Positions 31,006-37,112 of a stretch of 64,000 bases of DNA are shown one piece after another. Location: assembly GCA_005938025.2 (NCBI GenBank), contig VCCI02000001.1, positions 2,108,001 through 2,172,000 of the forward strand, written 5' to 3'. The notes beneath the pieces are model-generated. The model saw only the letters and a program-made list of their open reading frames with translations, ran no database searches and was not told the DNA's origin. Position numbers and translations under genes: made by a program. The stretch comes from Inquilinus sp. KBS0705. GTDB lineage: Bacteria > Bacteroidota > Bacteroidia > Sphingobacteriales > Sphingobacteriaceae. Within the stretch, counting starts at the first letter, position 1; each line of letters starts with the position of its first letter.

Positions 31006-31428
31006 ATGAAACACTACTTAACAGCAAGGGATTGCACAGCCCTTATTGATGCCTATTTTGTGCGCATTAAAGGCAAATACTATAATCTTAAAGGCAAAAA
31101 AGTTTACACTATAACACCCGAACCGCCAACCTTTACCGGCCTGGCCGCGGCACTTGGCTTTAATAGCCTCGCCGATTTTGAAGAATACCTAATTAAAGGC
31201 GCAAACGCCGACATTGTGAAACGGGCTAAGTTAAAAGTGGAGATCGAATACGAAAAACGCCTGCACCAGCCATCGGCCACTGCCGCAATTTTTGCCTTAA
31301 AAACCATGGGCTGGAAAGAGAAGGCTGCAGATACCCCTGAACAATTAACAGACAACCCACAAATAGAGATAGTGATATCGGGCCCCCACCCTGCCGCTAC
31401 CGAAAAGGATGTACTGATAGATGAATAA
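31006..31428 (+). CDS. Phage terminase small subunit
   Basis: A 140-residue protein with an N-terminal helix-turn-helix-like part (TFTGLAAALGFNSLADFEEYLIKG) and a later segment SATAAIFALKTMGWKEKA, a hallmark of terminase small subunits in Bacteroidota prophages. It would recognise the packaging site and stimulate the large subunit, which starts 31 bases downstream. It is the first gene after the promoter/operator at 30951, so it opens the late cluster. Confidence 0.85.
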   Translation: MKHYLTARDCTALIDAYFVRIKGKYYNLKGKKVYTITPEPPTFTGLAAALGFNSLADFEEYLIKGANADIVKRAKLKVEIEYEKRLHQPSATAAIFALKTMGWKEKAADTPEQLTDNPQIEIVISGPHPAATEKDVLIDE

Positions 31429-31459: not shown

Positions 31460-32689
31460 ATGTCTACCTTATTTTACAAACAAACAGCCGCCCTGTTTAA
31501 ATACAATTATGATGCAAGCGCGCAGGTTGTTGTTAACCAGGGTGGTACCAGCTCAGGTAAAACATACGCCATACAGCAGGTATTGTTTTGCCTGGCCTAC
31601 GAGACCCCCAAACAGGTTATTACCGTTGTTGGGCAGGATATACCTAACCTTAAAAGCGGTGTACTGCGCGATGCTAAAAGCATACTGGCCGAATCGCCTT
31701 CACTGCAACGCGCCATCAAAAAATTTAACAGTACCGATAGGGTATTTGAATTTTGGAACGGCAGCATTATAGAGTACAAGAGCTATGCCGATGCGCAGGA
31801 TGCCAAATCGGGCAAGCGCGATCACCTGTTTATAAACGAAGCCAACGGCATTAAATGGGGCGTGTACCACGAATTGGCCCTGCGCACCCGTAAGCGTATT
31901 TTTATTGATTATAACCCTAACAGCAGCTTTTGGGTACATAACAAGCTGATAGGGAATGATGGCGTACAGCTTTTTATATCGGACCATAGGCACAACCCCT
32001 TTATTACCGACGAGCTACGCCAAAAGATAGAAGCACTTAAATACGAAGATATAGAATTATGGAAGGTTTATGCCCGCGGGCTTACGGGCAAAATAACCGG
32101 CCTTGTATTTAAAAACTGGTACGTGTGCGATGCCATACCACCCGATGCCAAATTATTGGCTGCAGGGCTTGATTTTGGCTTTACTAACGACGAAACCGGA
32201 TGCCTGCTGGTTTATAAGCAAAACGGCGAGCTATGGGTTGATGAAGTGCTGTATAAAACAGGCCTAACCAATACCGATATATCAAAAAAGCTTTTAAAGG
32301 CAGGCATAAGCCAAAGTACCGAAATTATTGCCGATAGCGCCGAACCAAAATCGATAGAGGAGCTTAAGCGATTGGGCTGGTACATAACCGGCGCAAAAAA
32401 AGGTGCCGATAGTATTAACAACTCTATAGATATTTTAAAACGATACCGCATTAACGTAACCCGTGGCAGTGTTAACCTGCGTAAAGAATTGGACAAGTAT
32501 AAATGGAAAACCGACGCAACCGGTAAAAGCCTTAACACGCCCATAGATACCTGCAACCACCTGATAGACCCCCTGCGTTATGTAGCACTGGGCAAACTAA
32601 AAATAAAGGCCGGTAAAGGCATCAAAAGCAGGCTGCCCGCCCCCCCGCCCCCTGAAGGGGGAGTTTTTGAAGAACTAATTTCTTATTAA
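31460..32689 (+). CDS. Phage terminase large subunit
   Basis: Packaging motor of the Terminase_3 (PBSX-like) type, 409 residues. ATPase: Walker A GGTSSGKT (28-35) and Walker B region DHLFINEAN (121-129). Nuclease: Asp238 in AGLDFGFTND, Asp292 in IIADSAEP and Asp363/370 in DTCNHLIDPLRY. All look intact. The last 17 or so residues (PPPPEGGVFEELISY and neighbours) are encoded by a host-type hairpin repeat that has replaced the natural C-terminus. The next gene starts 58 bases after the stop. Confidence 0.93.
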   Translation: MSTLFYKQTAALFKYNYDASAQVVVNQGGTSSGKTYAIQQVLFCLAYETPKQVITVVGQDIPNLKSGVLRDAKSILAESPSLQRAIKKFNSTDRVFEFWNGSIIEYKSYADAQDAKSGKRDHLFINEANGIKWGVYHELALRTRKRIFIDYNPNSSFWVHNKLIGNDGVQLFISDHRHNPFITDELRQKIEALKYEDIELWKVYARGLTGKITGLVFKNWYVCDAIPPDAKLLAAGLDFGFTNDETGCLLVYKQNGELWVDEVLYKTGLTNTDISKKLLKAGISQSTEIIADSAEPKSIEELKRLGWYITGAKKGADSINNSIDILKRYRINVTRGSVNLRKELDKYKWKTDATGKSLNTPIDTCNHLIDPLRYVALGKLKIKAGKGIKSRLPAPPPPEGGVFEELISY

Positions 32690-32747: not shown

Positions 32748-33586
32748 ATGATAGAAAAAACACTTAAAACCATTGATGATAAATTGCCTGTGCGCATACC
32801 ATCGGCCTTGCACGAGGTTACGCTGGGGCAAATGATGGCCCTGCAGGATAGTGCGTTGCTTACCGACCTGGATGCTATAAGCATACTATCGGGCATACCA
32901 CTTACCGATCTGCAAAACGTGCGTGATGCAAACGATTTCGCGGTATTTGCCGATGCGGTGCTGGGCTTATCGCAGCAGATAAAATATTTGTACAATAGCG
33001 ATACCATCCCAAAAAAGATAACGCTGCGTATAGATGGCAAGCCGGTAACAGTAAGCGTTATAAAAAACTTAGCAGTAGAGCCCGCGGGTGCCTTTATGGC
33101 CGCTAAAGACATTATAGCCGACGAGATAGCCGAACACATTAAACAAACCGGCGAAGACAACTGGCAGAAGCATTTTAACCCATCGCTTAAGGCTTGCTGC
33201 AAGGTATTGGGCTATTATTTTTATTGCCGCGCCACAGGCAACCGATACGACGAATATGCCGCCGCCGCTTTTACCGAAACCATTAAAACACTTGGGGTAA
33301 CGGAGGCACTGCCCATAGCCAAACATTTTTTTATGAACTATCCCGCCTTATCGAAACCGAGAACAAGCTGCTGGCATCGGCTGCTACAGCTCTGGAAAAG
33401 CGGGCGGGCATACAAGCTTTCGAAAAGTTTAAATACATCAACACCATTAACGCCTTAGCCGGCGGCGATGTAACCAAATGGGCCGCCGTACTTGCACTAC
33501 CCTACGAGCGCGTACTCACCAAGCTACTGCTCAACAAAACCGAAGCGGAATATCAGCGGAAATATAGCGAGGTGGTAGCCCCCTAA
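32748..33586 (+). CDS. Putative tail assembly chaperone with -1 programmed frameshift
   Basis: The zero frame gives 236 residues (stop at 33458), but its last 41 residues look non-coding. At T7 (33326-33332), read CAT TTT TTT ATG, slipping back one base gives TAT GAA CTA and a further 84 codons of good coding quality (ELSRLIETENKLLASAATAL through YQRKYSEVVAP) to TAA at 33584-33586, for a product of about 279 residues. A U-UUU-UUU site is a classic slippery heptamer, and tail chaperones of long-tailed phages commonly use it. The N-terminal part contains DAISILSGIPLTDLQNV. A plain frameshift mutation is the alternative. Confidence 0.7.
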
Positions 33587-33682: not shown

Positions 33683-34126
33683 ATGCGTAACCAAATAAAC
33701 GCCATTGCGGATAGCCTGAGCGCCTCGCCATCCTTTTTATACGGCACCGAAAATGAATTGAACACCCTGGCAGATGATGCCGCCTTTCCCTGTGTAATGC
33801 TTTACCCTTTGCAGCCCATAGTGGTATCGCCGCAGGTAAATGGCTCGGTAAATAACGTATTTAGCCTGTACCTGGAGTTTTTGTACAAAACCGAATTTGG
33901 CCAATACACCGCCGAAAACGAAACCTATGTGCAGCAGGCCCTGCAAATGGCCAACGAGTTTATGGTAAAGGCGGCCAAATACCGCGACGGCGATGGCCGT
34001 TACTTCCGCGTTAAGGCAGGCGAAAAGGCCAAATGTGTGCCAGTTTACAACAAGTTTGATGTAAACACCACCGGTATTGGCCTCACCATCACCCTAACCA
34101 CCATGTATTCCGATCTGATCAGCTAA
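33683..34126 (+). CDS. Phage virion-associated protein, 147 residues
   Basis: Start taken at ATG 33683 (MRNQINAIADSLSASPSFLYG); an in-frame TTG at 33662 lies inside a repeat. The protein has alternating helices and strands (FSLYLEFLYKTEFGQYTAENETYV) and ends GLTITLTTMYSDLIS. Size and position between the chaperone and the large tail protein suggest a tail-completion or neck protein, but I recognise no named family. Confidence 0.65.
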   Translation: MRNQINAIADSLSASPSFLYGTENELNTLADDAAFPCVMLYPLQPIVVSPQVNGSVNNVFSLYLEFLYKTEFGQYTAENETYVQQALQMANEFMVKAAKYRDGDGRYFRVKAGEKAKCVPVYNKFDVNTTGIGLTITLTTMYSDLIS

Positions 34127-36224: not shown

Positions 36225-36641
36225 TTACTTAAATCTATTGTAATGACGATCTTCCACAAAACGTTGGCCCTCGAACGGCACATCCCAATGTAATATCATT
36301 TCAGCATCAGATATTTTAGCAATGGTAAAAGTATCCCTTTCCATGTAAGCGTTATCAATAAGCCTTTCAAGCATTAGCTTATTATTGACTATTTTATAAT
36401 TAAATGGAATTCGCTGAGAATACTTACCGCTCCCATCACTATTAAAAGTTAAATAAATATATGCTGGCTCGGAAAAAACAAATGTAGAATCATATGTAGT
36501 GACACCATTCTTAACTAACTGTCTCCTTGTATCACCAGGACTCCAATTGCCCACTATTTTTTTTGGATAACTGTCCTCCTTTTTACAGGCAGCAAAACCA
36601 AAAGTTATTAAGCAGATGAATATTAGGTATTTGTATTTCAT
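36225..36641 (-). CDS. Lipocalin-like lipoprotein (accessory gene, copy 1)
   Basis: A 138-residue lipoprotein with lipobox FGFAAC (Cys19) followed by KKEDSYPKKIVGNW, the entry of a lipocalin-like barrel. It is a clear paralogue of the next gene: the lipobox-to-KKI region is nearly identical at DNA level. It lies on the opposite strand to the phage genes on either side and is AT-richer than them, so it is a cargo gene inserted between tail genes. A role in surface modification or superinfection exclusion is speculative. Confidence 0.8.
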   Translation of the reverse strand: MKYKYLIFICLITFGFAACKKEDSYPKKIVGNWSPGDTRRQLVKNGVTTYDSTFVFSEPAYIYLTFNSDGSGKYSQRIPFNYKIVNNKLMLERLIDNAYMERDTFTIAKISDAEMILHWDVPFEGQRFVEDRHYNRFK

Positions 36642-36668: not shown

Positions 36669-37112
36669 TTATTTTTTCCAGGTAACGTCTACCACCCAAT
36701 GACGCTTAGGATTAATATAATCTTCACCATGACTTAAAGTCATTTCCGCGCTGCTTAATTTTAATATAATATAAGTATCTTCATAAGGTGTCCCTGATTC
36801 AGTGGTATGTAACATAAGGTTTAAGTTATTGCCTTCAATTTTGTAAGTAAAGTCATTTTTTGCAGCACCAATCCCATCCGCAGGATGCTTTTCGCCGGTT
36901 CCGTCAGCATTAAATAGAAAGTAATTTCCAGCACTGGCTCCGGCAATTACAACTGTATCACTAATCTTAACTCCGGTAGTGTCAAATACCTGGCGTCTAA
37001 TTTCTTTTATACGCCATTTGCCAATTATTTTTTTTGGATAACTGTCCTCCTTTTTACAGGCAGCAAAGCCTAAAGCTAACAAGCAAATAAACAGCAAGTA
37101 CTTGCTTTTCAT
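36669..37112 (-). CDS. Lipocalin-like lipoprotein (accessory gene, copy 2)
   Basis: A 147-residue lipoprotein (lipobox LGFAAC, then KKEDSYPKKIIGKWRIKEIRRQ). It aligns with copy 1 throughout, including the C-terminal SSAEMTLS and SDAEMILH segments, which indicates a tandem duplication. The two are 27 bases apart and transcribed together, against the direction of the tail genes. Its promoter should lie in the 72 bases before the hub gene. Confidence 0.8.
   Translation of the reverse strand: MKSKYLLFICLLALGFAACKKEDSYPKKIIGKWRIKEIRRQVFDTTGVKISDTVVIAGASAGNYFLFNADGTGEKHPADGIGAAKNDFTYKIEGNNLNLMLHTTESGTPYEDTYIILKLSSAEMTLSHGEDYINPKRHWVVDVTWKK

Follow-up and report, generated by a model that had tools for sequence, protein, structure and literature searches.

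Introduction

In phage lambda and other double-stranded DNA (dsDNA) phages, a single tail assembly chaperone gene yields two products, gpG and gpGT in lambda: a slippery heptamer shortly before the first frame ends permits a −1 shift, and the gene stands among other tail genes. The slippery heptamer of lambda is G GGA AAG. Herein, we analyzed a gene with the same arrangement at positions 32748–33586 of a 64,000-nt stretch of Inquilinus sp. KBS0705 (contig VCCI02000001.1, positions 2,108,001–2,172,000 of the forward strand), hereafter the window. Judged by the names of the closest loci, the window belongs to the genus Mucilaginibacter. Other −1 signals, such as those of dnaX and IS911, carry stimulators resembling Shine-Dalgarno (SD) sequences, and proven SD stimulators are located 6–17 nt before the second base of the slippery motif (PMC4066793; papers are cited here from excerpts and by PubMed Central number).

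The gene differs from lambda gpG/gpGT in its slippery sequence, U UUU UUU, in having no detectable sequence or fold match, in a C-terminal part of 84 residues, in a zero-frame tail of ~39 residues that is under selection, and in a tape measure gene that is not adjacent. With dnaX and IS911 it shares a purine-rich element, GGAGG, ahead of the slip site, but the spacing is 19–20 nt instead of 6–17 nt, the host phylum is reported not to use SD pairing, and no conserved downstream structure accompanies the site. Based on the comparisons below, we consider it likely that this gene gives two proteins via programmed −1 ribosomal frameshifting. It would be a clean case of frameshifting in Bacteroidota, conserved genus-wide, in a family without a usable match in PHROGs, Pfam, or NCBIfam. 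Among the titles and abstract beginnings returned by literature searches on Mucilaginibacter gene transfer agents (GTAs) and prophages and on Bacteroidota phage frameshifts, none describes the locus.

Slip site and conservation of the two frames

The sequence was read directly at the slip site, where the zero frame runs through CAT (33324–33326), TTT (33327–33329), TTT (33330–33332), and ATG (33333–33335), and the run contains exactly seven T (33326–33332). The zero-frame open reading frame (ORF) at 32748–33458 encodes 236 aa. The −1 frame from 33332 comprises 84 codons with a stop at 33586, and a slip at the second TTT would give 195 + 84 = 279 residues. The T7 slip site, the 84-codon −1 frame, and the length of the predicted 279-residue product, all named in the original prediction from the letters alone, were borne out by this reading and the translation (Table 1).

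Homologues were collected with the N-terminal part, which matched 87 of 399 family genomes, including 83 of the same genus (its own included) and 4 of other genera. Profile searches matched 90 of 400 genomes at the order level and 6 of 395 at the phylum level, five of the latter belonging to the same genus and one being weak. With 15 viral contigs added, there were 105 loci in total. Eight were left out of the homologue count: a copy of the window (L001), four loci with a deleted C-terminal part (L008, L053, L078, and L082), two with upstream indels in which the T-run and C-terminal part are still present (L046 and L073), and one missed by tblastn (L100). The final set contained 97 loci, 96 of them distinct, with the window's own copy counted in, and a subset of 85 near homologues was used for the frame and tail statistics.

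In all 96 distinct intact homologues, down to ~21% identity, an in-register T TTT TTT is present and is followed, in the −1 frame, by the same C-terminal part. The heptamer register was at the predicted place in 93 of them; in the three distant loci L103–L105 the projected register was one codon late, and their T9 run still contains an in-register T TTT TTT. The run was T7 in 61 homologues, T8 in 8, T9 in 22, and T10 in 5, and no slippery heptamer other than a T-run was found among the 96. The codon preceding TTT TTT always ended in T (CAT 71, TAT 13, TTT 10, and TGT 2), the background use in these genes being 215:162 for CAT:CAC, 341:303 for TAT:TAC, and 62:212 for TGT:TGC. The original prediction had named homologues that carry the two parts in a single frame as the sign of a simple mutation or sequencing error; a search for such homologues among the 96 found none.

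The position of the frame switch could be read from the variability of the alignment columns. In the 85 near homologues, the mean column entropies at the three zero-frame codon positions were 0.70/0.50/1.30 upstream of the T-run and 0.33/1.24/0.61 downstream of it. The most variable position thus changes from the third to the second, where the −1 frame has its wobble base, indicating that the frame switches exactly at the T-run. In the homologue comparison the −1 frame of the C-terminal part was under purifying selection; one counted locus (L062) has a −1 part that ends early, after 41 codons. Three more distant loci (L189–L191) also carry T9 and the C-terminal part in the −1 frame. Among 27 later loci, 25 showed the same pattern, many of them conspecific with, or copies of, loci in the earlier set, and the two exceptions were a deleted form (L204) and a cut contig (L219). 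The locus L100, a second copy in genome G300, has only T6 and no C-terminal part. Together, the conserved T-run, its register, and the two frames strongly support, on sequence evidence, recoding at the T-run in this gene, in the form of a programmed −1 frameshift at U UUU UUU.

Dual coding in the zero-frame tail

The zero frame had been described as noncoding after the T-run, which is contradicted by the length of its tail. The tail was 39 codons long in 49 of the 85 near homologues, 36 in 11, 42 in 6, 47 in 12, 54 in one, and shorter in 6; the median was 39 codons, compared with ~6 expected when the −1 codons were replaced with random synonyms. At tail codons 3, 6, 7, 14, and 18, zero-frame stops were expected in 35, 44, 18, 19.5, and 10 of the 85 sequences, respectively, and none was observed at any of the five sites. 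From codon 36 on, stops did occur (11 vs. 25 at codon 36, 56 vs. 45 at codon 39, and 23 vs. 30.5 at codon 47). The tail residues [YF], P, and L (or F, W, M) were present in 86, 85, and 85 of 86 sequences, compared with 9, 5, and 17 in the simulation. Kinship among the homologues inflates both the stop and the motif figures, although the excess remains very large. In 6 of 10 distant relatives, the zero frame stops immediately after Y/F-P-x-L.

By these counts, the overlap is dual-coding over at least the first 20 tail codons. The synonymous codons of the −1 frame are chosen in a way that holds the zero frame open and preserves its [YF]Px[L] motif, and both the short and the long product therefore look functional. 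With both frames selected, the short product would be more than a truncated by-product.

A frozen block upstream of the slip site

Upstream of the T-run is a block that is frozen at synonymous sites. The ratio of observed to expected synonymous variation was 1.00 over codons −90 to −31, fell to 0.26–0.39 around codons −15 to −6, was near 0.45 at the slip, and returned to ~1 by codon 18. In 70 near homologues, the block codons were ACG in 65/65 (0.10 expected), GAG in 70/70 (0.30), CTG in 66/69 (0.23), and CCC in 67/70 (0.28). A GGAGG with exactly 19 nt between it and the T-run was present in 61/61 T7, 8/8 T8, 1/22 T9, and 0/5 T10 homologues, and this spacing was constant in 70/70 carriers. The carriers form a single clade on the tree (support 100/99), indicating one evolutionary change rather than many. 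This site is the sole occurrence of GGAGG-N19-T7 in the window's genome. A set of same-genus loci (L056, L059, L064, L075, L076, L081, L084, L085, and L087–L092) has TTT TTT TTG (T9) and lacks the GGAGG block, which makes it a natural comparison for ribosomal versus transcriptional slippage.

A GGGUA/UGCCC stem could form in the block with GGAGG in the loop, but its stability was no better than that of shuffled sequences (z 0.35 and −0.37). Taken singly, the sequences of group A folded more stably (−7.4 kcal/mol) than those of group B (−1.4 kcal/mol). Across 32 distinct 22-mers, 95.6% of the cells were paired, the outermost pair was broken in 5 of 32, four stem changes kept the fourth pair (T-A three times and C-G once), and none was two-sided. 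A hairpin is thus only a possibility here. Pairing of the upstream GGGTA with a conserved downstream TATCC was dropped by eye, as TATCC is kept in the clade without GGGTA. SD pairing of GGAGG was also rejected, both for its spacing and because the phylum is reported not to use SD: GGAGG lies 20 nt before the second motif base, outside the 6–17 nt of SD-like stimulators, which are an optional feature of frameshift signals.

Mechanism and alternatives

The likeliest slip mechanism is a ribosomal −1 shift on U UUU UUU. Most ribosomes would read through the heptamer and end at 33458, giving 236 residues, while some would slip back one base as tRNA-Phe re-pairs in both the P and the A site; these would terminate at 33586 with 279 residues. 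The majority product is probably the short one; by analogy, the kind of ratio to expect is that of the lambda products, 30:1 (PMC5009743), or of HK97-like chaperone genes, with 6–7% shifting in tests (PMC3711429). The upstream frozen block may modulate the slip, and the protein pair may serve as chaperones in tail assembly, as gpG/gpGT do. Several points weigh against this mechanism. Because only T-runs were found, the homologue comparison does not separate ribosomal from transcriptional slippage. A conserved downstream RNA structure was not found in the homologue alignments (one alifold series gave zero energy throughout, which is weak evidence, and a rerun with converted letters again gave none downstream), and downstream folding of the window had a z-score of −1.4; such structure is not universal among bacterial frameshift signals (PMC4066793). 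In E. coli, A_AAA_AAG is described in a review as much more shift-prone than U_UUU_UUU (PMC5009743). Searches of PHROGs, Pfam, NCBIfam, BFVD, and PDB returned no chaperone family or fold match, and 27 of the 96 homologues have runs of 9–10 T.

Such long runs bring in transcriptional slippage, in which RNA polymerase would lengthen the transcribed T-run by one U and ordinary decoding of this mRNA would yield the long product. RNA polymerase slippage is known on T-runs of 9–10, with a bacterial threshold of about 9, so that the T9 and T10 homologues lie within its range, and the slippery sites are T-runs, 7 to 10 long, throughout. Papers on slippage in Shigella are listed among the references of PMC3711429. 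However, 61 of the 96 have only T7, which is short for the bacterial polymerase, and the full ribosomal heptamer is in register in every one, which holds also for its first T, the last base of the codon before. We regard transcriptional slippage as unlikely for this gene and as possible above all for the T9/T10 relatives. Homopolymers are also typical sites of sequencing error, and an error or a recent frameshift mutation in this genome would make the gene an apparent pseudogene; the identical arrangement in 96 of 96 homologues from many assemblies and the purifying selection on the −1 frame rule this out, leaving it a negligible probability. It is very improbable that the C-terminal part has a start of its own and is made as a separate, unfused protein. 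Reading back from the slip, the −1 frame stays open for 3 to 58 codons, but 82 of 95 homologues have no ATG, GTG, or TTG from the last −1 stop to the slip, no downstream start position common to all homologues was found, and the frozen T-run would be left unexplained.

For the block, a role wholly outside frameshifting is only a little less likely than not: it could be a DNA site or a promoter, or it could act as a regulatory element in RNA. Such a role would be compatible with ribosomal frameshifting at the T-run. Bacteroidia ribosomes reportedly ignore SD sequences (PMC9976891), the predicted hairpin does not surpass shuffled sequences, and a recurrent deletion described below starts a few nucleotides past the block in six genomes. 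Against an unrelated role stand the 19-nt spacing, fixed in all carriers, and the occurrence of the block only with T7/T8, with a single T9 exception. A more specific and rather doubtful proposal is that the 20-nt element at its fixed distance replaces SD pairing as a frameshift modulator, possibly sensing ribosomes that lack bS21 and have an exposed anti-SD, and that relatives without it use T9/T10, possibly reflecting a change into or out of transcriptional slippage. This would place a small hairpin with GGAGG in its loop at the mRNA exit from the ribosome, together with a minimal U7 slip site. In a 70S system, upstream hairpins adjoining the E site attenuate −1 shifting (PMC6321510), so the block might either raise or lower the frequency of shifting. 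Flavobacterium johnsoniae is reported to frameshift poorly at prfB (PMC12421855). The presence of the block with T7/T8 and its absence with T9/T10 would allow a direct test of frameshift tuning in bacteria without SD pairing.

Identity of the gene product

The original prediction called the gene a tail chaperone, which is plausible from the recoding and from the gene order TerS-TerL-X-tail, but no sequence library or fold search links it to that family. The PHROGs and Pfam searches gave no significant match, and the best NCBIfam hit was an unrelated radical SAM model (E 7.8e-6, 25 bits vs. a cut-off of 425). A tblastn search against a phage collection gave no match, and two scans of viral contigs with distant homologues returned one locus, the query's own, in the first and none in the second. 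For the structure model of the N-terminal part (pLDDT 74), the best BFVD matches (E 3e-5) were phage proteins without a name, proteins named as chaperones came only at E 0.6 to 1.1, and nothing was found in PDB at Z 5 or more, a second look included. The C-terminal model (pLDDT 61) was too poor for a fold search. The gene is the next after the terminase genes in the window and in two prophage-like contigs. Its position before the tape measure had also been taken as fitting; the tape-measure-like ORF is not adjacent to it, being separated by 7.3 kb that hold several ORFs. A tail assembly chaperone remains the best guess.

A phage-derived cluster and its deletions

The gene is part of a cluster that contains terminase, tail genes, a protease, a capsid-like protein, a portal, fibres, a lipase, and a lysozyme; no integrase was recognized among its ORFs.

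Table 1 Features of the predicted frameshift gene and of the surrounding cluster in the window
Feature	Position	Strand	Basis or remark
Whole recoded gene, zero frame and −1 frame	32748–33586	+	279-residue fusion
N-terminal part, zero frame, 195 residues, common to both products	32748–33332	+	ORF list; homologues
T7 slippery run, zero-frame CAT TTT TTT, U UUU UUU heptamer in register	33326–33332	+	Direct reading; homologues
C-terminal part, −1 frame, 84 residues and stop	33332–33586	+	Translation; −1 frame kept in homologues
Zero-frame tail, 41 residues and stop, overlapping the −1 frame; open, partly conserved ([YF]PxLSKP...)	33333–33458	+	Tail comparisons
Block frozen at synonymous sites, GGGTAACGGAGGCxCTGCCC	33295–33314	+	11 nt before T-run; synonymous constraint, codon counts
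GGAGG, 19 nt before T-run	33302–33306	+	69/69 T7/T8 homologues, 1/27 T9/T10
Terminase small subunit	31006–31428	+	PHROG 606
Terminase large subunit	31460–32689	+	PHROG 2, Pfam Terminase_3C
Next gene after the frameshift gene, without family match	33686–34126	+	ORF list, family searches
Tape-measure-like virion protein, 791 aa	40910–43285	+	PHROGs 14295/14476; tape-measure role putative
Phage-derived particle cluster, 24 kb	31006–54852	+	Family matches; same chromosomal locus in relatives

In most relatives examined (L107–L126 and L157–L175), the cluster is at the same chromosomal place with shared flanks. In protein distance, the N-terminal part tracks the host genes that flank the cluster (Mantel r 0.65, n 11; r 0.79, n 10), and the correlation between TerL and the N-terminal part was weak (r 0.27, p 0.09). 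A common locus and distances that track host genes fit a domesticated prophage or a GTA, and we regard the cluster, from its genes, as a candidate GTA of Mucilaginibacter or a domesticated prophage. Like RcGTA of the alphaproteobacterial GTAs, it is a phage-derived particle cluster at one chromosomal locus with vertical descent. Unlike RcGTA, it belongs to a different phylum and is known from genes alone, and its homology to GTA genes is limited to a general lysozyme match (BaGTA endolysin, E 2.4e-38, 132 bits vs. a cut-off of 315). An XRE/S24 regulator gene is located near the cluster locus.

Several genomes have deletions in the cluster with repeated, near-identical junctions. In six (L107, L108, L111, L112, L157, and L159), a deletion of ~21 kb on the scale of the window is found at the same position; it joins the frameshift gene, a few nucleotides past the block ...CTGCCCAT and before the T-run, to the small gene preceding a holin-like gene. 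The flanks of L107 match intact relatives on both sides (left: 93% to L033), so this deletion probably arose more than once. In other genomes, TerL is cut after the same codon (~102) and joined, almost without shared bases, to an acceptor point further on; three such points recur, namely the capsid gene (L162, L164, and L168), a small gene (L166 and L167), and the end of the tape-measure-like gene (L170, L172, and L173). Synonymous constraint was looked for at TerL codon 102 and none was found, making a conserved DNA site there unlikely. A spread of deletion alleles by recombination was considered and is unsupported, as the junction sides are mostly nearest to intact relatives and not to each other.

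Other irregularities were seen at the locus. L117 (G036) lacks the capsid-to-fibre genes, and in the stretch fetched for L122/L123 (G285) no downstream genes were found after the frameshift gene, so that the cluster is decaying in some lineages. In the window, two related small lipoprotein-like genes lie on the minus strand (36225–36641 and 36669–37112) amid the tail genes.
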